Positions 6,100 through 40,624 of a stretch of DNA of 49,614 nt are shown piece by piece. Origin of the DNA: Candidatus Woesearchaeota archaeon (GTDB taxonomy: Archaea; Nanobdellota; Nanobdellia; Woesearchaeales; GW2011-AR9); contig JAGVYE010000047.1 of the NCBI GenBank assembly GCA_018303445.1, positions 1 through 49,614 of the forward strand, written 5' to 3'. How positions within the stretch are numbered: the first letter of the stretch is position 1; the number at the start of each line of letters is the position of its first letter. The notes beneath the pieces were generated by a model that saw only the letters and a list, made by a program, of their open reading frames with translations, was not told where the DNA came from and did not search any database. Made by a program: the position numbers and the translations under genes.

Positions 6100-6876
6100 A
6101 TGGAGAAAAAAAGCCAGATCACGGTGTTTATTATTGTTGGAATTATTATGCTCGGACTAGCTGGGGGCATTTTTTTCTTGACTAAGTACACCGCCACCAA
6201 GGATCTTGAAACGGAAATTCCATCCCAATTACCTATTGCAAGCATTAGTTCATTTACACAATCATGTATTGAACGTATTGCAAAAGAAGCTGTGGCGCAG
6301 AATGGCGTCCAAGGAGGTTACTTTGAACCTCCTCCCGAATACGTAGAAGTTGCGAATCTAAAAATTCCCTACTTTTATGATGGAAAGAATGATGCAACTC
6401 CTCCCTCCAGAACTTTACAGAAGGAATTAGCAAAGAACGTCCAAAGAAATTTAAATAATTGCCTGCAAGATTTTTCTTTTATTAAGGATCAAGGCTATAC
6501 CGTAGAAACAGGGCCCATCCAGTCAGATATTATTTTTGGCGATAGTATCTTCTTTGACTTTACTTTTCCGGTAACGATTAGCGCTGAAACGACCAGCAAG
6601 ACCATTGATACCTTTTCAACCAGAGTTAACGTAAATATTCCTAAGATTATAGATACCTATGAACAGATCATAGAACAGCAAAAGATAAAACCTAATTTTG
6701 TGATGGTAAGTTATCTGAACGATCTAGCTTTAGAAAAAGAAGTGAGGATAGAATTAAATTATATTGATGGAGATTCTGTCTTATACACCATTATTGACCA
6801 AGATTCTCTCATCGATGAACATCCCTATCAGTTTACGTTTGCGATTAAGTACGACTGGACTAAAGAAGGTAAATAA
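6100..6876 (+). CDS. Pilin-like exported protein with N-terminal hydrophobic helix
   Basis: 258 residues. The N-terminus KKSQITVFIIVGIIMLGLAG is short, charged, then strongly hydrophobic, as in archaeal class III (type IV pilin-like) signal sequences. Proteins with this KKxQITxFIIxG start are common in Woesearchaeota-type genomes. The outer part has conserved-looking Cys residues (SCIERI and NNCLQDF) that could form a disulfide, and many beta-strand stretches. The stop overlaps the start of the next gene by one base (TAATG), so the two are probably co-translated and may work together at the cell surface. Exact role unknown. Confidence 0.65.
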   Translation: MEKKSQITVFIIVGIIMLGLAGGIFFLTKYTATKDLETEIPSQLPIASISSFTQSCIERIAKEAVAQNGVQGGYFEPPPEYVEVANLKIPYFYDGKNDATPPSRTLQKELAKNVQRNLNNCLQDFSFIKDQGYTVETGPIQSDIIFGDSIFFDFTFPVTISAETTSKTIDTFSTRVNVNIPKIIDTYEQIIEQQKIKPNFVMVSYLNDLALEKEVRIELNYIDGDSVLYTIIDQDSLIDEHPYQFTFAIKYDWTKEGK

Positions 6877-9158
6877 TGAATAAAGCAATCATAATAGTTA
6901 CCGTTTGGCTGCTTTTGGCAAGCAGCGCACTGGGAGAAAAACATGCTGCTGAGCCCAGCCTAAATAATCCTAATAGTTGGACTGCTGATTTCGTGCTAAA
7001 AAACCCCGCAGTTTACCAAACCAATCCAGAAATGGTTATAGATAGATTCCCTCAAGAAGCAAAGAATTATTTCTCTAGCTCAAGTAATGCCGCTTCAAAT
7101 CCTCAAGCGTATGGTTTGTTAATCGGAAAATATCCTGAAGAAATCCTTAGATATCCAGCGTCATATGAAACGGCAATATCTACTGATATTAGTGTGCTTA
7201 ACAATAACAAGGATACTTTTCTAGCTTACGCTCAATCACAAGGATTAATCCTTGAGCTTGATGAATTCGAAATTATCGGAGCTTTTAACCGCTTTTCTAA
7301 TGGAAATTTTGTAACTAAGGGTGATTCCTCTCTTTCTTTTACAATAGACCAGTTGAAAAAGTTGAAAGCTGATGGAAATTCTAATTTTAACATTGAAAGC
7401 GATGGTTCACTCACCTTCTCAAGGGAGGGAGAAAAATATGGTATACATGGAACCATGACTTTGAATGAGCAAGGTAAAGTTACCTTAACTAAGGGAAGTT
7501 TACAACACCCAGTTTTTTCTGAAAAGATAGATATTAAGGAAGAATGTGTGGGCTGCTCTATAATGCTGAATGCCGATGGAACTGCTCAAGTAAAAGGAAA
7601 AAACTTTTTTTTACCAAATGGGGAGATATTAATCCAAGGAGAAACGGTGTTGCATTCACCAGCACATTATACCTTTCTAGATGGTTCTTCCTTTTCAACA
7701 CCAGAAAAAGGCAGTTTTTCCGTCAAGATAGACACGGATTATTTTACTGACAATATTGATCATAGCGGTAATGAACAAAGTTATATTCAATCTTATTTTG
7801 CCATTACTCTTGATAGAGTTCCAGAAGATGTCCATAAGCCCGTTATATTTGCAAGAAGATTAATTGTCGTGCCAAGGGAAGAAAATAGTATAGAAGCAGT
7901 CCTATCCACAGACCATGCCTATACCAATCTGGACCTAAACTCACTCCAAGGAAAGGTCAACATCGTGGAAGAGACCGATACCGGTAGCATAGTCATACAG
8001 GCTTCTCACGGCGAGGTGTTGATGCAAGGGAACATGGAAAATTCAGCCTTGGCAGCGATAACCAATACCGAAGGAAACGGAAATATCCTGCAGATAAAAT
8101 CGTACCCTGGAGAAAAAGAAGTATATTCCTGTCCACTATCATCAGGCAGCTCTGCCACCGGTTCTGCCATTACCGGAGCTGTAGCGGTAGGAAGTCGGTG
8201 TACGGTAACAGTTATTCTTTCTGATAAGTATAACAAACAAATTGTTGACGTTCTTGGAAAGGATGCGAAAAAAGTGACAGAACTCCTTACTGGTAATTTG
8301 GAACGAGAGTTTTTACGGGTTGCCGAGCGTAAGTATGGAGCAAGAGTCAAAGACCTCAGAATCAGGTTTGTTCTTCCCGAGGAGTTGCCAGAGCAGGTTG
8401 CTGCTTTTGTTAAAAGCGACGTAGAGCTACGGGGAGGAGTAACCTACCAAACTCCAGGGGTTATGTATTTTAATATAGAAGATATAGATCCAGAGTTCGC
8501 AACCTTCGGCAGATTGTTTAACAATGATGAAGCTGAAGAAACTTTTACCCATGAATATGCACATATTATATTTAACCAAGGGCATCCCGCTATTACCCGC
8601 GACACAAGAGGGGTATCTGAACAAGAATATACTGTTCTTTCGAATAAAATTAAGGCTGAGCTGGGATTTACTGACGAAAGCTTAAATGATAAAAGAAACG
8701 ATGATTTATTTTTGTTACGTGCAACACAGGAAATGGAGAAAATTGCGCGCTCCGGAGGAGATAAACTGCGTTTAGAGATTGAAGATCTTATTCAAGATGG
8801 AAGACGAGAGCTCGCTCCAACTGAAGATTATACTGAATGGGAGACTTACAGCACTGCGCATGCAGGCTGCTATCGTGCATATATGTGTTCCGATCCAGAC
8901 GAATATATAGCAGAGATGGCTAAATTTGTGAGGCATAAACCGGAACTGGTGGCGATGAGCATTCAACAAGGCTCTCGATTTTACAAATCTACCCCCTATT
9001 TAAGTTCTCGCCAGAATTATGATCCACGATTCAAGGAGGGTTTGGAAATTGCACGCAAGACGGAAGTCATTACAGAACAAGAATACAACAAAGTTATAAG
9101 CTTATCAAAACAAAAGAAAATACCTTGCAATTATTGTGATAAATATGTAGTTGATTAA
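6876..9158 (+). CDS. Exported zinc metalloprotease-like protein (HEYAH), 760 aa
   Basis: A signal peptide of about 20 residues (ending SSALG) is followed by a long beta-rich region, about residues 110-440, with repeated glycine/aspartate turn patterns. A gluzincin-like domain comes next: HEYAH at residues 559-563, and a downstream EYIAEMA helix (E676/E680) that could give the third zinc ligand. One likely disulfide region is seen near CYRAYMC, and a C-terminal CNYC pair. The protein is probably secreted or surface bound, coupled to the upstream pilin-like gene by a one-base overlap. The beta region may bind carbohydrate or other surface polymers; that part is guesswork. No named peptidase family recognised. 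Confidence 0.65.
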   Translation: MNKAIIIVTVWLLLASSALGEKHAAEPSLNNPNSWTADFVLKNPAVYQTNPEMVIDRFPQEAKNYFSSSSNAASNPQAYGLLIGKYPEEILRYPASYETAISTDISVLNNNKDTFLAYAQSQGLILELDEFEIIGAFNRFSNGNFVTKGDSSLSFTIDQLKKLKADGNSNFNIESDGSLTFSREGEKYGIHGTMTLNEQGKVTLTKGSLQHPVFSEKIDIKEECVGCSIMLNADGTAQVKGKNFFLPNGEILIQGETVLHSPAHYTFLDGSSFSTPEKGSFSVKIDTDYFTDNIDHSGNEQSYIQSYFAITLDRVPEDVHKPVIFARRLIVVPREENSIEAVLSTDHAYTNLDLNSLQGKVNIVEETDTGSIVIQASHGEVLMQGNMENSALAAITNTEGNGNILQIKSYPGEKEVYSCPLSSGSSATGSAITGAVAVGSRCTVTVILSDKYNKQIVDVLGKDAKKVTELLTGNLEREFLRVAERKYGARVKDLRIRFVLPEELPEQVAAFVKSDVELRGGVTYQTPGVMYFNIEDIDPEFATFGRLFNNDEAEETFTHEYAHIIFNQGHPAITRDTRGVSEQEYTVLSNKIKAELGFTDESLNDKRNDDLFLLRATQEMEKIARSGGDKLRLEIEDLIQDGRRELAPTEDYTEWETYSTAHAGCYRAYMCSDPDEYIAEMAKFVRHKPELVAMSIQQGSRFYKSTPYLSSRQNYDPRFKEGLEIARKTEVITEQEYNKVISLSKQKKIPCNYCDKYVVD

Positions 9159-11837: not shown

Positions 11838-13292
11838 ATGACTTCGGAACTCTCTACTAAACCAAAGCGCCGCTTCCCAGAAGGATATAAACCAAATACC
11901 ACTGATCTTACAGCAGGAAGATACGGCACTCAGGAAATGGGGATAATATGGGGTGCAGAACGAACTATGCACTATCAGTTACTGGTCCAAGGACAGGCGG
12001 CTTTAACCTTAAGCGAGATGCATGCGGATATTCTTCCTCGTGAAATTGCTGACGAGATTGCTTCTAAAGCGACATTAGAACATGTTTCATCAGCGAGAAT
12101 TCGAGAACTGGAGGAAAAAACAGAGCACGATATTATTGCTCTCAACATGGCCTTAGAAGAAGTGGTGAGTGAGGCGGCAAAACCACACATCAATAAAGCT
12201 AAGACCAGCGCGGATACAACACAACCAGCACGTGCTCTGCAATTAAAAGCAGCGCTGGAAGTTATCATTGATTCTCTGGAAAATTTGCGAGATATTACGA
12301 TTGAAAGGGCTGTGGCCTGGAAAGAGATTCCTCACATGGATACAACTCATTTAATTGATGCCCTGCCCACAGTTGCGGGAAGACCTTTTGCTTTCTATGC
12401 CGAAATGTTGCAAAAAGGCCTAGACTTCCTGAAATTTGTTTATCAAAATTCTCTGATGGGAAAATGGGCCGATGCCACGGGAAATCATCATGGAGCAACT
12501 GTATTAGGAATTCATGGACAAAAATTAGAAGAAGCATATTGTAAAAATTTAGGAATTGGACATATGGTGGCTTCCGCGCAAATTCCTGGTTTAGAATTTG
12601 AAGCGCAGATTATTTGCGCTTTAGCCGGTGTCGCAGAGACCGTGGGCAATATCGGTCGTTATCTTCGAATGCATAAAGGAAGTGATGCCCACTTATTTTT
12701 AGATCTTAATCCTAAAAAGAAAAAAGGTTCTGCAGCTATGCCTCACAAAGATCTGCGGGGAGGGAATCCTACGGCAGAGGAACAAGCAGAATCGATGTGC
12801 CGCCTTATGCGAGGATATGCGAGTGCAGCACTCTCAAATTGTGAAATGGATTATGGAAGAGATTTGACCGCCTCAGCAAACATGAGAATTATCTTAGAAT
12901 CAGGATTTAAATGTTTGGATCATTCCGTGCGGCAAATGGCAGCAGCAGTATATTATTTAGGAATTGATGAACAGCGAGCGAGAGAGCGCATAGAGCGTAC
13001 TTTTGGCATCACAACTTCAAGTCGAGTGCTGCAATATATTACGGATTCGAGAACTACGGCAAATCCGTTGCCACGAAGTACGGCCCACGATTTATTAGGT
13101 GTGCTGGCAACAAAAGCATGGAATGGGAAAAGGGATTTTAGTGAGGTGTTATTACAAAATGGGGAGATAAATTCACGAATAGATGAAACGAAAATAGGTG
13201 AACTAGCGAATCCTTCTACTTATATTGGGGAAAGTAAAAGAATTATTACCATGATTTTTCTGACCTATTATCAAAAAAAGACATTAAAGTAA
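11838..13292 (+). CDS. purB: Adenylosuccinate lyase
   Basis: 484 residues of the fumarase/aspartase superfamily. The signature loop reads KGSAAMPHKDLRGGNPTAEE near residue 297, with the Ser-Met-Pro-x-Lys core and a short insertion. TQPARALQLKAAL and the GNHHGATVLG segment supply the usual first and second conserved regions. The enzyme cleaves SAICAR to AICAR and also adenylosuccinate to AMP, so it would serve purine salvage even if the rest of the de novo pathway is absent. Last gene of the purECB cluster. Confidence 0.85.
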   Translation: MTSELSTKPKRRFPEGYKPNTTDLTAGRYGTQEMGIIWGAERTMHYQLLVQGQAALTLSEMHADILPREIADEIASKATLEHVSSARIRELEEKTEHDIIALNMALEEVVSEAAKPHINKAKTSADTTQPARALQLKAALEVIIDSLENLRDITIERAVAWKEIPHMDTTHLIDALPTVAGRPFAFYAEMLQKGLDFLKFVYQNSLMGKWADATGNHHGATVLGIHGQKLEEAYCKNLGIGHMVASAQIPGLEFEAQIICALAGVAETVGNIGRYLRMHKGSDAHLFLDLNPKKKKGSAAMPHKDLRGGNPTAEEQAESMCRLMRGYASAALSNCEMDYGRDLTASANMRIILESGFKCLDHSVRQMAAAVYYLGIDEQRARERIERTFGITTSSRVLQYITDSRTTANPLPRSTAHDLLGVLATKAWNGKRDFSEVLLQNGEINSRIDETKIGELANPSTYIGESKRIITMIFLTYYQKKTLK

Positions 13293-21145: not shown

Positions 21146-23692
21146 ATGAGTGCAAAAGACCTGCCAGAGACTTTTCGTCCCGAACAGTATGACATTCATT
21201 TTATTCCGGCATTACAGAAAGACTCTACAGGTCAATACCACTTTGAGGGCAGCGAGACAATTATGTTCAGAGTTCTAAAACCAGCGTCTGAAATTGTCCT
21301 TCATGCTCGTGGTCTTACCATTGATAATGTCGTTGTCAGTTCTGGAGAATCTGAGCAGACTATTGATTCCTCTCTGGTGCGATATGATGCCAAAGAGCAA
21401 ACTGTGTCCATTCCTTTACCTTATCTTGTAAACCCAGGCCCTCTTTCGTTATCACTACATTTTTCTGGGAATATGAAAAAAGGCAAAGGCCTTTACGCCA
21501 GTAACTATAAAGGAAGAGACGGGACAGATCGTGTCATGGCCACAACGCAATTCGAAGCCGCTCACGCGCGGGAAGCTTTTCCTTGCCTTGATCATCCTGC
21601 AGCGAAAGCAAAATTTAACGTTTCTGTGACTGTTGATTCAGATTTAGAAGCCCTTTCTAACGCCTCTGTCTTTCGAGAAATAGATTTTGGGAATGGCACA
21701 AAAATGGTTTACTTCGAAAAAACTCCTCCCATGTCAACATACCTTTTGTATCTTGGTGTAGGCGAGTTTGATTCTATTTCCAGTTCCGTCAATGGCGTTC
21801 CTCTTCGCGTTCTTACCACGCCAGGAAAACAAGAGAAAGGCCGCTTCGCCTTGGAAGCGGCCCAAAAATTCCTCACCTTTTATGAGGCTTACTTTGCTAT
21901 TCCTTACTCGGATTCTCTCCCTAAATTAGATCATGTCGCCGTTCCTGACTTTGCCTTTGGCGCGATGGAAAATTGGGGGGCAATCACCTTTCGCGAAGAT
22001 GCCTTACTCTGTGATCCCGAAAAAGCTTCTTCTGCAAATAAACAACGCGTCGTGACTATTCTTGCTCATGAATTAGCTCATATGTGGTTTGGTAATCTTG
22101 TCACCATGAATTGGTGGGATGATCTCTGGCTCAATGAATCTTTTGCCGATTGGCTTTCGTATAAGACCGTTGATTCTTTCTATCCCGAACTCGATATCTG
22201 GTCCACTTTTATGACTGATGGTGTCACTGCTGCCTATGCTCAGGATTCTCTTTCTACTTCTCATCCTATCCATCAGCCGGTGGATACTCCGGAAGATACG
22301 GAACAACTTTTTGACCATATCAGTTATTCAAAAGGCGGTATGGTTTTACGCATGCTTGAAAAGTACCTTGGAGAAGAAGTCTTTAAACAAGGTCTTCGTC
22401 AGTATCTCCAGCGGCATAAATATGGAAATGCTCAGGGTGATGACCTTTGGCAGGCCATGGAAGATGTTTCAGGAAAACTTGTGAAAGACTTAATGGAAAG
22501 CTGGATTTCTCAAATAGGATATCCTTTAGTCGATGCCACTCTGGAAGGATCTACACTACGTCTTACTCAGCAACGTTTCCGCTATAAAAGGTTGGATAGA
22601 GAAACGAAATGGCCTATTCCTCTCACCATCACTGCTGATGGGAAAACCTTAGATGCTATTCTTTTCACAGATGAGGATCAGGAAATCGATCTTGGCATGG
22701 AACCACAGCGGCATCTGAAATTAAATGCTGGCCAGTTTGGTTTCTTTCGAGTTCGATATGATCCAGCTACACTTTCTCAACTTAAGCATGCTGTTGAAAC
22801 AAAAGAACTAGATGTCATGGACAGATGGGGTCTTCACAGCGACCAAGCGGCATTATGTCTTGCGGGAGAGATTTCTCTTTCTGATTACATCAATTTTGTT
22901 GAGGGGTATAAAAACGAGGACTCTTATCTTGTTACGAAAGATGTCATCACCAGTCTGGAAAAAATCGCCTTGTTGTGTTCAGAGGAATCTTTTGTTTCCA
23001 GAATTCATGAAACGCAAAGAACAATCTATAAATCTATCTTAGATCGTTTAGGTTGGGAGCGGCAAGATGGTGAAAATGAAACTGATGGTCAACTCCGCGC
23101 TGATGCTATTTTTGGTTTAGGAAGGCTTCATGATTCAGACGTTATTGAAGGTGTGAATAAACTGATGAGTAACAGATCTTCGATTCATCCCGATTTGCGT
23201 AGAGCTGCCTACGGCATTGCCGTGTGGTCAGGCGGCAGAGAACGCTTTGAACAAATGCAGCAACTTTATGAACAAGAAGAAGATCCTCAAGAAAGAATAA
23301 ACCTTCTAAGATCCTTGATGGGAAGTAGCGATGGTGGTATCATCGACCAAGCTCTTGCCTACATTCTTACTGATAAAGTAAAGACACAAAATAAAGTTTA
23401 TGCCCTTGCGAACCTGATCATGAACCCTCAGGGAAGAAAACATGTTTGGCCATGGATACAACAACATTGGCCGAAAATAAAAGAAACCTATGCCGATTAT
23501 CACGGTCATTTTCGTATTATCCTAGAGTATCTCAGTAATGCAGGGGATCTGATCGATGCACAAGAAGCCAGAACTTTCCTCGAGAGAGATCCTATTTTAG
23601 GAACAGAGCGTCATACTCTTCAATTAGCTGAAATGCTAGATATTAATCAAGCCTTCTTGGAACGTGCTCGCCAGAATTTTGCTATTCCTTAA
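21146..23692 (+). CDS. M1-family zinc aminopeptidase (puromycin-sensitive/tricorn-factor type)
   Basis: 848 residues, the full M1 length. GAMENWG at residues 272-278 is the exopeptidase N-terminus-binding motif. HELAH at 308-312 with E331 gives the HEXXH-X18-E zinc site. A tyrosine-containing ISYSKGGMVLRMLE segment follows, then a beta domain and a long helical C-terminal domain. No signal peptide, so it is probably cytoplasmic and finishes peptide breakdown after larger proteases. Its 3' end overlaps the convergent Lhr helicase gene by 11 bp. Confidence 0.92.
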   Translation: MSAKDLPETFRPEQYDIHFIPALQKDSTGQYHFEGSETIMFRVLKPASEIVLHARGLTIDNVVVSSGESEQTIDSSLVRYDAKEQTVSIPLPYLVNPGPLSLSLHFSGNMKKGKGLYASNYKGRDGTDRVMATTQFEAAHAREAFPCLDHPAAKAKFNVSVTVDSDLEALSNASVFREIDFGNGTKMVYFEKTPPMSTYLLYLGVGEFDSISSSVNGVPLRVLTTPGKQEKGRFALEAAQKFLTFYEAYFAIPYSDSLPKLDHVAVPDFAFGAMENWGAITFREDALLCDPEKASSANKQRVVTILAHELAHMWFGNLVTMNWWDDLWLNESFADWLSYKTVDSFYPELDIWSTFMTDGVTAAYAQDSLSTSHPIHQPVDTPEDTEQLFDHISYSKGGMVLRMLEKYLGEEVFKQGLRQYLQRHKYGNAQGDDLWQAMEDVSGKLVKDLMESWISQIGYPLVDATLEGSTLRLTQQRFRYKRLDRETKWPIPLTITADGKTLDAILFTDEDQEIDLGMEPQRHLKLNAGQFGFFRVRYDPATLSQLKHAVETKELDVMDRWGLHSDQAALCLAGEISLSDYINFVEGYKNEDSYLVTKDVITSLEKIALLCSEESFVSRIHETQRTIYKSILDRLGWERQDGENETDGQLRADAIFGLGRLHDSDVIEGVNKLMSNRSSIHPDLRRAAYGIAVWSGGRERFEQMQQLYEQEEDPQERINLLRSLMGSSDGGIIDQALAYILTDKVKTQNKVYALANLIMNPQGRKHVWPWIQQHWPKIKETYADYHGHFRIILEYLSNAGDLIDAQEARTFLERDPILGTERHTLQLAEMLDINQAFLERARQNFAIP

Positions 23693-26552
23693 ATTTCTCT
23701 ATCACAAACTCCTTCAACTCTTCCGGCCATTCTTCCTCAATTTCTTTCCGGTAATTTTTACATTCATCAAAAACATCTTTCCTCATATTGCCAAACTCAA
23801 CTAATTTTACCAATTCTTCTTTCGCATATACAGGGACATGTTTTAATCCCCACACTTGCATTTTAAGCTTTTCTTTGACGGTATCTTTTTCCTCTTGCTG
23901 TTTTTTCTGCACCTCTTCCCAAAAAGACTGATAGGAAAATTCTTCTTTCTTTTCCTGTATTTTTCGTTTTCCTTCTTTCAATGCGATTTTTGCTATCACG
24001 ACTTGATGCATTCGCCGCAGAAATTCCTGCTTGTCTTCAATTTTAATCACATCACTATAGCCTCCCGCAATCAAGCCAAAGGCAAAAGGGCTAGGAAATT
24101 CCGTGGGCATTTCTTCCACTTTAATCTCGCCTTTGATAACTTTATCTATAATCACCTGCGCATGCGTATAATCCATCATGTCTTCTAACACTTCCCGCCG
24201 CGCTTCTTGTAGAATAGGGAAATTATTACTTATTCTTTTCACGGCATTAAACAAAATTTTGCTGCCGATCTGCATTCTTCCCACTTTCTTTTTTTGCCCC
24301 ATATACTGCCGGAGGATCATTAATGATCTCGTGGCGCAATGGCGAAAGCGCCTCTGCAAAATCTCGCTTCGTTCAATGGCGTCTTCCAGAACCTGTCTGA
24401 AATTATCTGATTTTAATAACGCAAACGCTCTTCTGGCCTGAAACTGCTCTTCTGCAGAAAGATAAAATCCATTGTCGGTAACGCCGATCTCGACATCACG
24501 ATGCTGTGACTTTCCTATCACATAGGCTAAAGCTCTTGACAAGCAGTCATTTACTCTTCTTCCAAAAAGAGTTTGGAAAATAACATACTTTCTTCCTCTA
24601 TCAACATAGGTTTCAATAGTAATTTTTTGGTCATGGGGGATAACGCTAAAGTGATATTGCTGATAAAAATAATGATAAATGCTTTCTGCGACCTGCTCAT
24701 CAACATAGAGAAATTCATGAATAAATTTCTGTATTTCTTCCTGGTTTTGTTTTTGCGCAAACTTTTCTTCCATTAAGTGTCGAAAATGGGAAATTTCCAT
24801 AGCTAAGTCAAATGATAAGGGAAGCATTTCTGAAAACCAACTGGGAACAGTAGGAGGTCTATTAACGGAAGTACTGACTTGCGCCGTCATTCCCCTAGAA
24901 AATTTAAACATATACACATTTCCACCTAAAATAAACACGTCTCCCGGTCTTAATCTCTCGAGAAAGCCTTCATCAATCATGCCTACAATCTGCTCGCCTA
25001 CTTTTACAGTTACATACGTTTCCTCTGGAATCGTGCCAATATTCGTCATATATATTACTCTCGCCATTTTCCCTTTTTTTCCAATATTTCCCGTTTCTTC
25101 ATCGTACCAAATACGGGCATAGACATGACGCTCCTCTAAATCTACATATTGTCCAGAGAGAAATTTGATAAGCTCAAAGAACGCTTCCCAGGATAAGGAA
25201 TGATAACAATAACTCTTTTTGAGGAGATGAAATAATTCATAGATGTTAATAATTTCATTAATGGCAATGCCATAAATATGTTGGGCTAAAACATCAAGGG
25301 CATTAAGGGGGATATGCACTTTGTCAATTTTTCTTTCGACGGCAGATTTCAACAATAATGCGCATTCTACTAAATCATCTCGATCCATAACGATAATCCG
25401 CGCTTTGACCGTGCTCTGCAGCTGATGTCCAGCTCTTCCCGCACGCTGCAGAAATCTGGCAACGGATTTCGGACTGCCTAAACAGATAACCAAATCAATA
25501 AATCCAATATCAATACCGAGTTCTAGTGAGGTTGAAGAGACTATTACCTTTAAATTTCCTTCACGTAATTCCTGTTCTGTCGCAAAACGGCTGGATTTGC
25601 TTAAACTCCCATGATGCGCGGCAATTTTTTCTTTATAATCTTCAGGAAAAAGTTCTTTGAGATTATGAACAACTCTTTCTGTCGCACTTCGTGTATTGGT
25701 AAAAATTAACGTTGTTTTGTGCTCTTGAATCAAATTATGAATTTGTTCATACATTTTTTTATGTTTAAGCAAATAGTCGGTATCAACTAAACTCTTTACT
25801 GGACTCATAACCTGCAGATCCATCAGTTTAAGAAATTGCACATCAACGATCTCGCAGTCCCTTTCCTCTTCTCCTCTGTACCCTGCTAAATATCGGGCAA
25901 TTTCTTCCAATGGGGCAATGGTCGCTGACAAACCAATTCGTGCTAAGGCTGGTGAAAGGCGCTGCAATCGTTCTACAGTCAAACTTAAATGCACGCCTCG
26001 CTTGTTCTCTGCGAGAGCATGAATCTCATCAATAATCAACCATTGCACATCTTTCAATTTCTCATGGAATTTAGGAGAATTTAACACGATCGCTAATGAT
26101 TCAGGGGTAGTTATCAAAATATGAGGAGTGTGCTTCAACATCCGCTGTTTCTCAGAGGCGGTTGTATCTCCTGTTCTAACACTAACTCTAATTCCTAGCT
26201 TCTTATCTGCTATTTTTTCAATCTCTTCTAACGGCTTCAACAAATTGACAGCAATATCATAGTTAAGCGCTTTTAACGGAGAAACATATACCGCATACAC
26301 TTTATCCTCAAGAATTTTCTTCTGGGCAGAATCAACGAGCTCGTTGAGAATGGCTAAAAACCCGGTCAATGTTTTTGTTGCTCCTGTGGGAGCAGAAATA
26401 AGAATATTCTTTCGGTTATGAATTTCCATTACTCCATAAAGTTGCGGCAGGGAAAATTCTCTAAACTTCGAAAAGAACCATTGTGTAAGCAAAGGATGAA
26501 GAATAGCTTTAAGCTGTACGGGAGTATATGGTTCTTGGGCTATGGTAATCAT
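23682..26552 (-). CDS. Lhr-type superfamily 2 ATP-dependent helicase
   Basis: 956 residues from the ATG at 26552 (MITIAQEPYTP); 22 further in-frame residues upstream look non-conserved. Helicase motifs in order: ISAPTGATKT (Walker A), WLIIDEIHALAENKRGVHL (DEIH plus the Lhr-style ENKRG), IGLSATI, STSLELGIDIG and QRAGRAGHQ. After the RecA pair come the winged helix and the beta-barrel region typical of Lhr core proteins (FILGGNVYMFKFSRG). Lhr enzymes unwind 3'-tailed DNA or DNA-RNA hybrids and are tied to repair. A TATA-like CTTATAAAG lies 44 nt upstream. Confidence 0.88.
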   Translation of the reverse strand: MITIAQEPYTPVQLKAILHPLLTQWFFSKFREFSLPQLYGVMEIHNRKNILISAPTGATKTLTGFLAILNELVDSAQKKILEDKVYAVYVSPLKALNYDIAVNLLKPLEEIEKIADKKLGIRVSVRTGDTTASEKQRMLKHTPHILITTPESLAIVLNSPKFHEKLKDVQWLIIDEIHALAENKRGVHLSLTVERLQRLSPALARIGLSATIAPLEEIARYLAGYRGEEERDCEIVDVQFLKLMDLQVMSPVKSLVDTDYLLKHKKMYEQIHNLIQEHKTTLIFTNTRSATERVVHNLKELFPEDYKEKIAAHHGSLSKSSRFATEQELREGNLKVIVSSTSLELGIDIGFIDLVICLGSPKSVARFLQRAGRAGHQLQSTVKARIIVMDRDDLVECALLLKSAVERKIDKVHIPLNALDVLAQHIYGIAINEIINIYELFHLLKKSYCYHSLSWEAFFELIKFLSGQYVDLEERHVYARIWYDEETGNIGKKGKMARVIYMTNIGTIPEETYVTVKVGEQIVGMIDEGFLERLRPGDVFILGGNVYMFKFSRGMTAQVSTSVNRPPTVPSWFSEMLPLSFDLAMEISHFRHLMEEKFAQKQNQEEIQKFIHEFLYVDEQVAESIYHYFYQQYHFSVIPHDQKITIETYVDRGRKYVIFQTLFGRRVNDCLSRALAYVIGKSQHRDVEIGVTDNGFYLSAEEQFQARRAFALLKSDNFRQVLEDAIERSEILQRRFRHCATRSLMILRQYMGQKKKVGRMQIGSKILFNAVKRISNNFPILQEARREVLEDMMDYTHAQVIIDKVIKGEIKVEEMPTEFPSPFAFGLIAGGYSDVIKIEDKQEFLRRMHQVVIAKIALKEGKRKIQEKKEEFSYQSFWEEVQKKQQEEKDTVKEKLKMQVWGLKHVPVYAKEELVKLVEFGNMRKDVFDECKNYRKEIEEEWPEELKEFVIEKFKE

Positions 26553-26726
26553 CTTGTAGAAAATATTTATCAGAAAATTGGTAGGGAGTGTCTTTATAAG
26601 CCTTATGCCTGGTTTCAAGCTGCTTTGGGGGTAAATTTTCTTTGGAAATGAGCGGTAAGAAATAGCTATTCTTCGATCTTTCTACGAAAGAACAGCTTGA
26701 TAGGGGTACTATTTCACAGTAATTAA

Positions 26727-26738
26727 CTTTATATATTT
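26727..26738 (+). promoter_or_regulatory. Archaeal TATA box driving the sigma factor gene
   Basis: CTTTATATATTT is centred about 26 nt ahead of the ATG at 26758. No -35 TTGACA-like box is placed upstream of it and no ribosome site lies before the ATG, so the gene appears to be read by the normal TBP/TFB machinery as a leaderless mRNA. Confidence 0.6.
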
Positions 26739-26757: not shown

Positions 26758-28041
26758 ATGTTTTATTTCTATTATTCTAAGGATCTACAGAAGAAAACAG
26801 CTGCTGATCTTCAAGAAATAGATCTGCATGTTGGAGCCTATTTAGATCGTGATGCTTTGGTTAAATTAACTGGATCTGAAAAACGGAAAATTAATGAGGA
26901 ATTAGAAAAAGCTCATGGTCAGGCTTTTAGAGAGGGCCGTTATTGGTATTTCTGGGTGGATAAAACTTTCCTGAACCGCTTTTCTTCAGCTAATTTAGAA
27001 TCACCAGCAAACTCCCCAGGAAGCATTGATTTGAGAGAATTTGCCCCTTCCCCAATGGCAAAGAAAATTTATTGTCGAACCAACACCAGTGATCAGGCAA
27101 GCGGCGAAACCACAACAGAAAATTCCAAACCTGAAAGAGATTATCACCACCCATCAGCTTTTAAACTTTATCTTCGAGAGATAGCGAAACATCCTCTTCT
27201 TAGCGAAGACGAAGTGGCGAAGTTATCTAATCGCTACCAGCAGGGAGATTTGACGGCTAGAGACCAATTAGTTAAAAATAATTTAAAATTGGTAGTTAGT
27301 ATTGCCAAAAAAATTTTCCGACATGGTATGACTATAGAGGATTTGGTTTCAGCAGGAAATTTTGGTTTGTTTAAAGCTGCTGAAGGATTTAAGCCAGAAC
27401 TTGGTTGTCGATTCTCTACTTATGCCACTTTGTTGATAAAGCATGAAATTATTCGTGAAATTGATAATAATGGAATGGTTGTACGACTTCCAGTGGAGAG
27501 GATTCAAGACATTAGAACTTGGAATAAATTGTATCGAAAATATCAACAAAGTGGAGCCAAAACTTATTTTGAGACTTACGTGGCTGGGGAAACAGGCTGG
27601 AAATTAGCTAAGCTCCGAAGAGTGGAGTCTGATAGCTTTAGTTATTCTCTAACTTTGAGTTTAGATGCCCCGCTGGCAATGAACAGAAACGATGATGGAA
27701 AAGAGAGAAGGGAAGGCAATTTATTGGGACTTATCGCCGATTCGCGAATAGCAGACGTTGTTGATGTTTTAGATAAAAAAAATAAATTAGAAGCAATTGA
27801 AGAGATTGTTGATTCCGGCTTTATTGAAGGAAAAAAGCGTATTCAATTTACTGATAAAGAAAAAATTACCTTGACCAGGCGCTTCGGGTTATTTGACGCG
27901 GCAAGCGAGGAGACCTTAGAAGAAATTGCACGAGATTTTCACCTTAGCAGAGAACGTGTTAGACAAATTGAAACTAAAGGACTAAGGAAACTGCGAAGAA
28001 TACTTTCTCTCAAAGGATATCTTGTTGAAGAAACGGAATAG
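26758..28041 (+). CDS. Bacterial-type sigma-70 family RNA polymerase sigma factor in an archaeon
   Basis: 427 residues. Region 1.2: PSAFKLYLREIAKHPLLSED from residue 132. Region 2 (167-240): LVKNNLKLVVSIAKKI, EDLVSAGNFGLFKAAEGF and CRFSTYATLLIKHEIIREI. Region 3: RLPVERIQDIRTWNKLYRKY from 243. A finger-like segment SLDAPL ... GNLLGLIAD follows, then region 4: LTRRFGL and EETLEEIARDFHLSRERVRQ from 384. Residues equivalent to the E. coli -35 contacts R584, E585 and Q589 are kept (R398, E399, Q403). Equivalents of core-binding Q406/E407 are S198/A199, and of W433/W434, Q437 and T440 are L225/L226, H229 and I232. There is no region 1.1; residues 1-75 form an unknown winged-helix-like part joined by a Ser/Pro/Thr-rich linker. 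Complete sigma factors in a few uncultivated archaea have been reported before (Rinke et al. 2013). Function unproven. Confidence 0.93.
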   Translation: MFYFYYSKDLQKKTAADLQEIDLHVGAYLDRDALVKLTGSEKRKINEELEKAHGQAFREGRYWYFWVDKTFLNRFSSANLESPANSPGSIDLREFAPSPMAKKIYCRTNTSDQASGETTTENSKPERDYHHPSAFKLYLREIAKHPLLSEDEVAKLSNRYQQGDLTARDQLVKNNLKLVVSIAKKIFRHGMTIEDLVSAGNFGLFKAAEGFKPELGCRFSTYATLLIKHEIIREIDNNGMVVRLPVERIQDIRTWNKLYRKYQQSGAKTYFETYVAGETGWKLAKLRRVESDSFSYSLTLSLDAPLAMNRNDDGKERREGNLLGLIADSRIADVVDVLDKKNKLEAIEEIVDSGFIEGKKRIQFTDKEKITLTRRFGLFDAASEETLEEIARDFHLSRERVRQIETKGLRKLRRILSLKGYLVEETE

Positions 28042-28045
28042 AAAA

Positions 28046-28408
28046 TTAACTGAAAAATTCCACATCATCAGTAGAAATCGTCGTTTCTTTCTTTTTCTCT
28101 GAAGTGAAGAGTTGTTTATTCAGATTTTTCTTTTCATCATCTACGAGGATGTTTATCATTCCCTTTAATTCCATTCCTTTCTTATACGGCACATTTCCAC
28201 ATTTCAGGCAATGAAAATAAGGTCCAAACTTCCCGCTTCTGCTTTCCAACCAGGAACCGCAACTGCAGCGTATTTCTTCCATCAGCTCTTTGGTATGAAG
28301 ACGACAAACTTCCAACCCTTGAGGATTCTTCTGTGTTGCAATTTTGCCACAGAAAGGACAATTTGCTTCCCTATAATTACCGTATTGCTTTTTGGCTTTA
28401 AAACGCAT
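28046..28408 (-). CDS. Topoisomerase-type zinc-ribbon protein, 120 aa
   Basis: Two Cys clusters: CPFCGKIATQKNPQGLEVC near residue 17, then CSCGSWLESRSGKFGPYFHC with CLKCGN near residue 49. The second matches the zinc ribbons at the C-terminus of type IA topoisomerases (SGKFGPYFxC), here as a stand-alone protein, a form seen in DPANN genomes. The charged tail ends TTISTDDVEFFS. Such ribbons bind nucleic acid. It is convergent with the sigma gene with a 4-nt gap and divergent from adk across element 3. Confidence 0.7.
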   Translation of the reverse strand: MRFKAKKQYGNYREANCPFCGKIATQKNPQGLEVCRLHTKELMEEIRCSCGSWLESRSGKFGPYFHCLKCGNVPYKKGMELKGMINILVDDEKKNLNKQLFTSEKKKETTISTDDVEFFS

Positions 28409-28660: not shown

Positions 28661-29263
28661 ATGAAACTTATCTTCTTAGGCCCCCCTGGGGCAGGAAAAG
28701 GCACATACTCTGAAAGACTCGAAAAAGAATTCCACTTTAAGCATTATTCTTCCGGAGATATTCTCCGTGCCGAAGTTAAGAACGAATCAGTTACAGGAAA
28801 AAAAATAAAAGACTTTTTAGATCAGGGAAAGTATGTTCCTGATGATCTTATAACAAAAATGATGTCCGAGCGTCTGAAAGGAAAAGATAATTATATCCTT
28901 GATGGTTTCCCACGAACTTTGCAGCAAGCCCAAGAAGCGGAAAGCCTTGGTATTGACTTTGTTATTTATCTTAAAATTCCCCTGCGTGTTGTCCTGCAGC
29001 GATTAACAGGAAGGCGCATGGATCCTGTTACCGGAAAAATTTACCATCTTCAGAACATTCCCCCGCCAAAAGAAATTATTCGCCGCTTAACACAGCGTGA
29101 TGACGATAAATCCGAAATTATTAAACAGCGTTATAACGTCTATCAAGAATTAACGGAACCTATTGTTGCCTATTATACAAAAAAAGGTCTTCTTCAGGCG
29201 GTGGACGCGGCCAGAGGTCCAGACCTTGTTTATAAAGATATTAAGAAATTTCTGAAAAAATAA
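28661..29263 (+). CDS. adk: Adenylate kinase, short-lid form
   Basis: 200 residues. P-loop GPPGAGKGT at 7-15, YSSGDILR for AMP binding, DGFPRTLQQA, and GRRMDPVTGKIYHL followed directly by the RRLTQRDDD region, so the LID is the short type. This is the bacterial/eukaryotic adenylate kinase family, not the archaeal trimeric AdkA kind. It converts AMP and ATP to two ADP and links to the purine genes in the window. A weak T-rich TATA-like site lies between element 3 and the ATG. Confidence 0.92.
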   Translation: MKLIFLGPPGAGKGTYSERLEKEFHFKHYSSGDILRAEVKNESVTGKKIKDFLDQGKYVPDDLITKMMSERLKGKDNYILDGFPRTLQQAQEAESLGIDFVIYLKIPLRVVLQRLTGRRMDPVTGKIYHLQNIPPPKEIIRRLTQRDDDKSEIIKQRYNVYQELTEPIVAYYTKKGLLQAVDAARGPDLVYKDIKKFLKK

Positions 29264-40538: not shown

Positions 40539-40624
40539 GGGGTTGTGGTCTAACTTGGCTAGGATTAGCGGTTCGGGTGGATCAGAAAAGCCGCTCGGTC
40601 GGGGTTCAAATCCCCGCAACCCCA
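40539..40624 (+). tRNA. tRNA-Pro (anticodon CGG) with a 12-nt intron
   Basis: Acceptor GGGGTTG pairs with CAACCCC; discriminator A. Anticodon stem AGCGG/CCGCT with T-T-CGG-G, then 12 extra nt (40578-40589) before position 38. T arm CGGGG-TTCAAAT-CCCCG is normal, with no T-loop intron. CCA is not encoded. The intron is near the smallest size seen for archaeal tRNA introns. Confidence 0.88.

Follow-up and report, generated by a model that had tools for sequence, protein, structure and literature searches.

A sigma-70 family protein encoded by a resident gene of a woesearchaeal genome

Introduction

In archaea, transcription is normally initiated by TBP and TFB. Archaeal sigma factors are said to have been first described by Rinke et al. 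in 2013, and our literature search found no functional study of them. Sigma-70 proteins have been reported across the DPANN archaea, where they are "particularly prevalent in Woesearchaeota", mis-binning was excluded, and no anti-sigma factor was found (Castelle et al. 2021, PMC8204110). The initial annotation of the DNA studied here regarded the class as known from the 2013 work but unstudied. The class is known and little studied, but the prior art is broader than that and includes the 2021 report.

The window analyzed here is the entire contig C8 (49,614 nucleotides) of a 1.22 Mb, 95% complete woesearchaeal genome, G000. This genome encodes TBP, TFB, and archaeal Rpo1 together with one sigma gene, whose product we call P0001. 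Like the 2013 proteins and family fam00359 (Castelle et al. 2021, PMC8204110), P0001 is a bacterial-type sigma-70 in a small archaeal genome with TBP and TFB. Like fam00359, its class is prevalent in one archaeal group, and the two agree in description and distribution.

Results

P0001 belongs to the sigma-70 family

The initial annotation had placed a 427-residue sigma-70 protein at 26758–28041. The limits of the open reading frame are exact, and regions 1.2, 2, and 4 pass their Pfam cut-offs. The gene was characterized by Pfam and profile searches, structure alignment, and an AlphaFold model.

26758–28041, + strand: P0001, sigma-70 family gene, 427 aa, ATG start
27163–27249, + strand: sigma region 1.2 (residues 136–164), Pfam PF00140 Sigma70_r1_2, 28.9 bits, above the cut-off of 22
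27268–27465, + strand: sigma region 2 (residues 171–236), Pfam PF04542 Sigma70_r2, 56.1 bits, above the cut-off of 24
27493–27651, + strand: sigma region 3 helices (residues 246–298) in the AlphaFold model, no Pfam match
27658–27741, + strand: finger/region 3.2 segment, SLDAPL...GNLLGLIAD, longer than in relatives by alignment
27820–27843, + strand: predicted beta-hairpin inserted immediately ahead of region 4.1 (residues 355–362), from the alignment and AlphaFold model
27850–27996, + strand: sigma region 4 (residues 365–413), Pfam PF04545 Sigma70_r4, 44.0 bits, above the cut-off of 24.1

A Pfam search of region 3 at E ≤ 1 gave no match. The NCBIfam RpoS model (TIGR02394) covers residues 128–424 continuously, through region 3 (E = 3e-52), and the RpoD model (TIGR02393) also spans this region. 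The scores of 177.7 bits for RpoS and 150.8 bits for RpoD are under the equivalog cut-offs of 378.7 and 354, and the superfamily model TIGR02937 matches above its cut-off (86.6 versus 42.9). RpoS structures align with residues 112–420 (E = 2e-35), and RpoS is the top Foldseek match to the AlphaFold model, which contains the sigma-3 helices and the sigma-4 fold at mostly high confidence. The hairpin insertion is missing from the other DPANN rows of the alignment. Sigma70_r2 matches were confined to bacteria among 14 control genomes searched, which puts the sigma assignment far beyond chance. These data confirm that P0001 is a sigma-70 family protein. The initial description of the sigma factor as complete is too strong, because region 3 has no Pfam match and core-binding, melting, and -10 residues are replaced in P0001.

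The gene has an archaeal promoter and archaeal neighbors

The upstream and flanking features are as follows.

23682–26618, − strand: Lhr-type helicase, divergent neighbor (Pfam)
26725–26735, + strand: archaeal promoter, AAC followed by TTTATATA; the TATA box is at 26728–26735, with leaderless spacing
28046–28408, − strand: small cysteine-rich protein, 120 aa, convergent neighbor
28661–29263, + strand: adenylate kinase (Pfam), with a 44% identical homolog near the sigma gene of genome G011

A TATA box 26 nt from the ATG had been noted initially, and its center lies 26.5 nt upstream. TATA-like hexamers peak about 32–26 nt before the start codon in 422 sigma-locus and 177 own-genome upstream regions, the own-genome statistics being drawn from 20 stretches of G000. 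In the 177 own-genome intergenic upstream regions taken by themselves, the peak is at -32 to -28, and an 8/8 TATA match occurs in that window in 11/177 compared to 0/177 in a control window. The P0001 box, TTTATATA, scores 8/8 and is one of these 11; it is also the best box of the 47 sigma genes scanned.

Of the two flanking genes described initially, the Lhr helicase was recovered by Pfam, but the "DPANN-type zinc ribbon" is the 120-aa protein, which has weak zinc-ribbon-like matches only. A 77% identical Lhr ortholog lies 5.7 kb from a sigma gene in genome G008, and the two genes are oriented to each other as they are in the window. An Lhr gene was also considered beside the G011 sigma gene and was rejected, since that gene encodes a Ski2-like helicase with 25% identity. 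Elsewhere in the window, a 760-aa protein without a Pfam match is encoded at 6876–9158. ARAGORN calls a tRNA-Ala at 40539–40624 with anticodon AGC and a length of 86 nt, both odd for archaea, which suggests that the tRNA is mis-called or intron-bearing.

Sigma genes in related genomes occupy recurrent archaeal loci. In two genomes (L037:8386–10803 and L041:9718–10773), they lie directly upstream of and co-oriented with the rps13-rps4-rpo3 operon, and L037 has two sigma genes in tandem. A second locus adjoins a class I tRNA synthetase, identified by its sequence as LeuRS, in L040, L043, L050, L051, and L070, and also in L056, L057, L061, and L067. It spans several genera, contains one or two tandem sigma genes, and often includes a DUF7343/MarR-like membrane protein and a Lon_C-domain protein. 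Separately, L037:10846–13665 encodes a primase-related protein with matches to an intein-like splicing domain and a homing endonuclease.

The sigma class is resident in the archaeal family

Within the archaeal family of G000, sigma homologs were detected in 40/49 genomes, in 30/36 genera, and in 22/25 of the genomes of high quality. In the phylum they were detected in 125/371 genomes; some DPANN genomes gave partial matches only. Family genomes have up to six sigma matches, which are paralogs. A scan of genome contigs with P0001 alone found no relative. P0001 and its neighboring genes have the same GC content and codon use. Selection was estimated from same-genus pairs of family members other than P0001. 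These pairs are mostly 37–70% identical (54–70% for the closest ortholog pairs) and have a dN/dS of about 0.2–0.56 by the NG86 method, with high dS. The sigma family members other than P0001 are thus under purifying selection but evolve fast.

Contamination is ruled out as an explanation of the sigma class, and a chimera at the P0001 site is very unlikely, because of the family distribution, the recurrent archaeal loci, the host-like GC content and codon use, and a dN lower than dS. The initial annotation had raised a bacterial chimera as the finding that would undo it, and no signal of one was seen given the host-like codon use, the recurrent loci, and the homologs in most family genomes. We regard the probability of an assembly chimera or bacterial contamination at 26.5–28.5 kb as negligible: the homolog in G011 has the same N-terminal domain, the promoter is archaeal, the composition is uniform, and the closest named bacterial matches are only 31–36% identical. 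The original claim of a sigma-70 protein resident in an archaeal genome, under an archaeal promoter, is right.

P0001 has bacterial ancestry and a long branch

Patterns derived from the full alignment matched bacterial records only. The ancestry of P0001 is a bacterial group 1/2 sigma factor. Most DPANN sigma factors form one tree group (support 95/98), and some are placed elsewhere. P0001 has the longest branch (1.7) and is placed beside RpoS/Verrucomicrobia (support 97/91) in a tree whose bacterial members were picked by similarity to P0001 and are a biased sample. Neither a tree that unites P0001 with the main DPANN group (p-AU 0.33) nor one that unites it with the G011 copy (p-AU 0.36) was rejected. 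Because of the long branch and these alternative placements, we make no claim on the bacterial donor. A tight placement within one bacterial genus, the other outcome that the initial annotation had set against itself, is contradicted by the 31–36% identity to the best named bacterial matches.

The main DPANN group also includes proteobacterial-type RpoD from contigs labeled viral. Two such contigs, L260 and L274, were considered as archaeal viruses and rejected because the end of L260 resembles, by its sequence, an ordinary proteobacterial-type RpoD gene. The "viral" sigma factor of L260 is probably host DNA.

Region 2 residues are replaced and -35 residues are kept

The residues of P0001 and 52 DPANN sigma factors were compared by alignment-based mapping onto E. 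coli numbering, using the E. coli residue numbers and roles in core binding, melting, and -10 and -35 recognition. Three segments of P0001 were identified in the alignment.

27340–27354, + strand: region 2.2 core-binding motif DLVSA (family consensus DLIQE); D403 kept, Q406 replaced by S198 and E407 by A199
27430–27444, + strand: region 2.3/2.4 segment LLIKH (family consensus WWIRQ); equivalents of the W-dyad and Q437 lost
27949–27966, + strand: -35 recognition residues RERVRQ; equivalents of R584, E585, R588, and Q589 kept

Among the core-binding equivalents, D403 (D195) and N409 (N201) are kept, and Q406 and E407 are changed. The equivalents of the melting residues W433 and W434 are L225 and L226, and that of Q437, which reads the -10 element, is H229. 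The departures are Q406S, E407A, W433L, W434L, R436K, Q437H, and T440I; T429 and Y430 are kept. The -35 contact residues R398, E399, R402, and Q403 correspond to R584, E585, R588, and Q589. Across the 52 DPANN sigma factors, position 403 is acidic in all (D in 46, E in the other 6), and E407 is kept in 43, Y430 in 45, W434 in 42, and Q437 in 39. The four -35 equivalents are kept in 45–48 of the 52. With these residues kept, the DPANN proteins taken together resemble functional sigma factors with bacterial DNA specificity.

Positions 406, 407, and 433/434 vary in some working bacterial alternative sigma factors, for example FliA, and some such factors lack E407 and the W-dyad. Since such factors work, the changes in P0001 lower, and do not abolish, the chance that it initiates transcription, and those at 406, 407, and 433/434 are weak evidence for lost initiation.

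The lost residues, the longest branch in the tree, and the partial matches in some DPANN genomes would also fit a sigma gene that was acquired, has no function, and is decaying toward loss. The gene has an intact 427-codon frame, a perfect TATA box, fully kept -35 residues, and host-like codon use, and dN is lower than dS in other members. These features argue against decay, which we consider quite improbable.

P0001 has a predicted MerR-like N-terminal domain

Alignment, searches, and a low-confidence model point to an additional domain before the sigma regions.

26815–26988, + strand: MerR/HTH_17-like winged-helix domain (residues about 20–77)

The order of elements in the low-confidence part of the AlphaFold model is beta-HTH-beta-beta-helix (strand, HTH, hairpin, helix). 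The P0001 domain itself has no Pfam match, and one of the copies in G011 scores 20.0 bits against MerR_1 (E = 7.6e-4), under the cut-off of 21.6. Among the 49 family genomes, the domain is convincing only in G000 and G011; G020 gives a weak match (E = 2e-4). The G011 protein (C39; L049:8696–13348) is encoded in one uninterrupted reading frame and has about 1550 aa, with four MerR-like HTH domains and three sigma modules. Two of the modules are degenerate, and the last is canonical and keeps WWIRQ and DLIQE.

The host polymerase and promoters show no sign of adaptation to sigma

In E. coli and B. subtilis, the clamp helix on which sigma docks carries basic residues (R271, R275, K280, R281, K296, and R297). 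The residues at these positions in the G000 clamp are acidic or hydrophobic (D, I, F, E, W, and D), and R278 is shared. The charge is reversed, with E. coli R271, R275, R281, R293, and R297 corresponding to D, I, E, E, and D in the archaeon. A comparison of sigma-bearing with sigma-lacking relatives detected no difference that would indicate adaptation of the clamp to sigma. An apparent frameshift at L165:3340–3440 (C50, about 12371–12376) breaks the archaeal Rpo2' gene of G000 between positions 126 and 144 of PF00562; the gene is unbroken in most relatives, and the frameshift is probably an assembly error.

The 660 kb of sigma loci contained 25 TTGACA-(16–18)-TATAAT dyads at one mismatch, compared to 34.5 expected, and so showed no enrichment. 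Neither there nor in 314 kb of the own genome, its upstream regions included, were -35/-10 dyads enriched over shuffles or scrambled controls. The promoters thus give no hint of a second promoter system used across the genome, nor the clamp of an adapted polymerase. These tests would miss a regulon that is small or whose motif has changed, and any P0001 regulon would be of that kind.

These results bear on the idea that P0001 is a true initiation sigma factor, which would join the RNA polymerase of its own cell in a holoenzyme and drive a second, bacterial-style class of promoters for a few genes. The full domain order 1.2-2-3-finger-4, the functional residues largely kept across the 52 DPANN sigma factors, and the two genomes with a sigma gene directly upstream of the Rpo3-encoding operon speak for it. 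The reversed clamp charge, which is the same in sigma-bearing and sigma-lacking genomes, the lack of a TTGACA-TATAAT signal, and the region 2.2 and 2.3/2.4 residues lost from P0001 speak against it. We consider this idea unlikely, but with an appreciable chance of being right.

A different idea is that the archaeon delivers P0001 to an attached bacterium, where it would redirect the bacterial RNA polymerase. The acidic core-binding residues of most family members, which would suit a basic bacterial clamp and not the archaeal one, are consistent with such delivery, as are fast evolution, multiple paralogs, and the lack of cognate promoters in the archaeal genome. Against it, no signal sequence was seen in P0001 by eye, its annotated neighbors include no secretion genes, several family genes reside in housekeeping loci, and core-binding and -10 residues are missing from P0001. 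Delivery of P0001 is very improbable. The broader proposal that the archaeal sigma family is made for the RNA polymerase of co-living bacteria, and not for the archaeon's own, is suggested by the bacterial-like core-binding and promoter-reading residues of most members and the lack of matching features in the archaeal polymerase and promoters; its chance is also very slim.

Discussion

The explanation that we tentatively favor, at somewhat less than even confidence, is that P0001 is a bacterial-derived sigma-70 protein, now a normal archaeal gene, that acts in its own cell as an accessory, promoter-selective DNA-binding transcription factor. We infer the DNA target, polymerase contact, regulon size, and function of P0001 as follows. 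It would be expressed from an archaeal (TBP/TFB-type) promoter. Its intact sigma-4 helix-turn-helix would bind a TTGAC-like element, and the MerR-like N-terminal domain may bind a second site or a partner. P0001 would recruit or modulate the RNA polymerase of the archaeon itself at a few promoters, and on its own it probably melts promoters weakly or not at all. DNA binding is favored over autonomous promoter opening because of the loss of Q406, E407, W433, W434, R436, and Q437 and the addition of the HTH-like domain.

The resident distribution, the archaeal loci, a dN lower than dS in other members, the host-like codon use and GC content, the 8/8 TATA box, the presence of TBP and TFB, and the kept -35 residues, which mark the DNA-reading part as constrained, were all counted for an accessory factor. 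The sigma finger and the full domain order count against it, as they are needless for a pure DNA-binding repressor. So does the archaeal clamp, which lacks the basic docking residues and does not differ in sigma-bearing genomes. The initial annotation had offered three options. A second promoter system has no support in the promoters of the genome, use against bacterial neighbors has little positive evidence, and a repurposed DNA-binding protein, extended here to an accessory factor, fits P0001 best of the three.

That about 80% of the genomes in one archaeal family keep a sigma homolog implies either a second route to transcription start alongside an archaeal polymerase or a domesticated DNA-binding protein. 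The accessory-factor explanation predicts TTGAC-like DNA binding, weak promoter opening by P0001, and a polymerase contact other than that of bacterial sigma factors. Members that keep the functional residues, some of them upstream of the Rpo3-encoding operon, are better test objects than P0001.

Among known systems, bacterial RpoS and RpoD (groups 1–2) are the best profile and structure matches of P0001 and share its domain order and intact -35 residues. P0001 differs from them in scoring below the equivalog cut-offs, in its 31–36% identity, in its lack of the W-dyad, Q437, Q406, and E407, and in its extra N-terminal domain, archaeal promoter, and archaeal host. MzaA of the MZA anti-phage system (NF041931) is among the best NCBIfam matches and also combines a sigma module with a long N-terminal part. 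However, the score of 145.8 bits is far below the cut-off of 800, and Pfam scans of neighbors of P0001 revealed no recognized defense gene. Compared to fam00359, P0001 adds a MerR-like HTH, a hairpin before region 4, and the loss of conserved region 2 residues. The G011 protein is the sole other family member with the N-terminal HTH domain and also has an adenylate kinase gene nearby, but it contains four HTH domains and three sigma modules per chain, and its neighboring helicase is Ski2-like and not Lhr. Besides the lack of a -35/-10 signature in the genome and the opposite charge of the archaeal clamp, two features of P0001 appear to be new: the predicted MerR-like HTH-sigma architecture, common to one other genome of 49, and a set of putative -35-reading residues that stays intact while Q406, E407, W433/W434, and Q437 are replaced.
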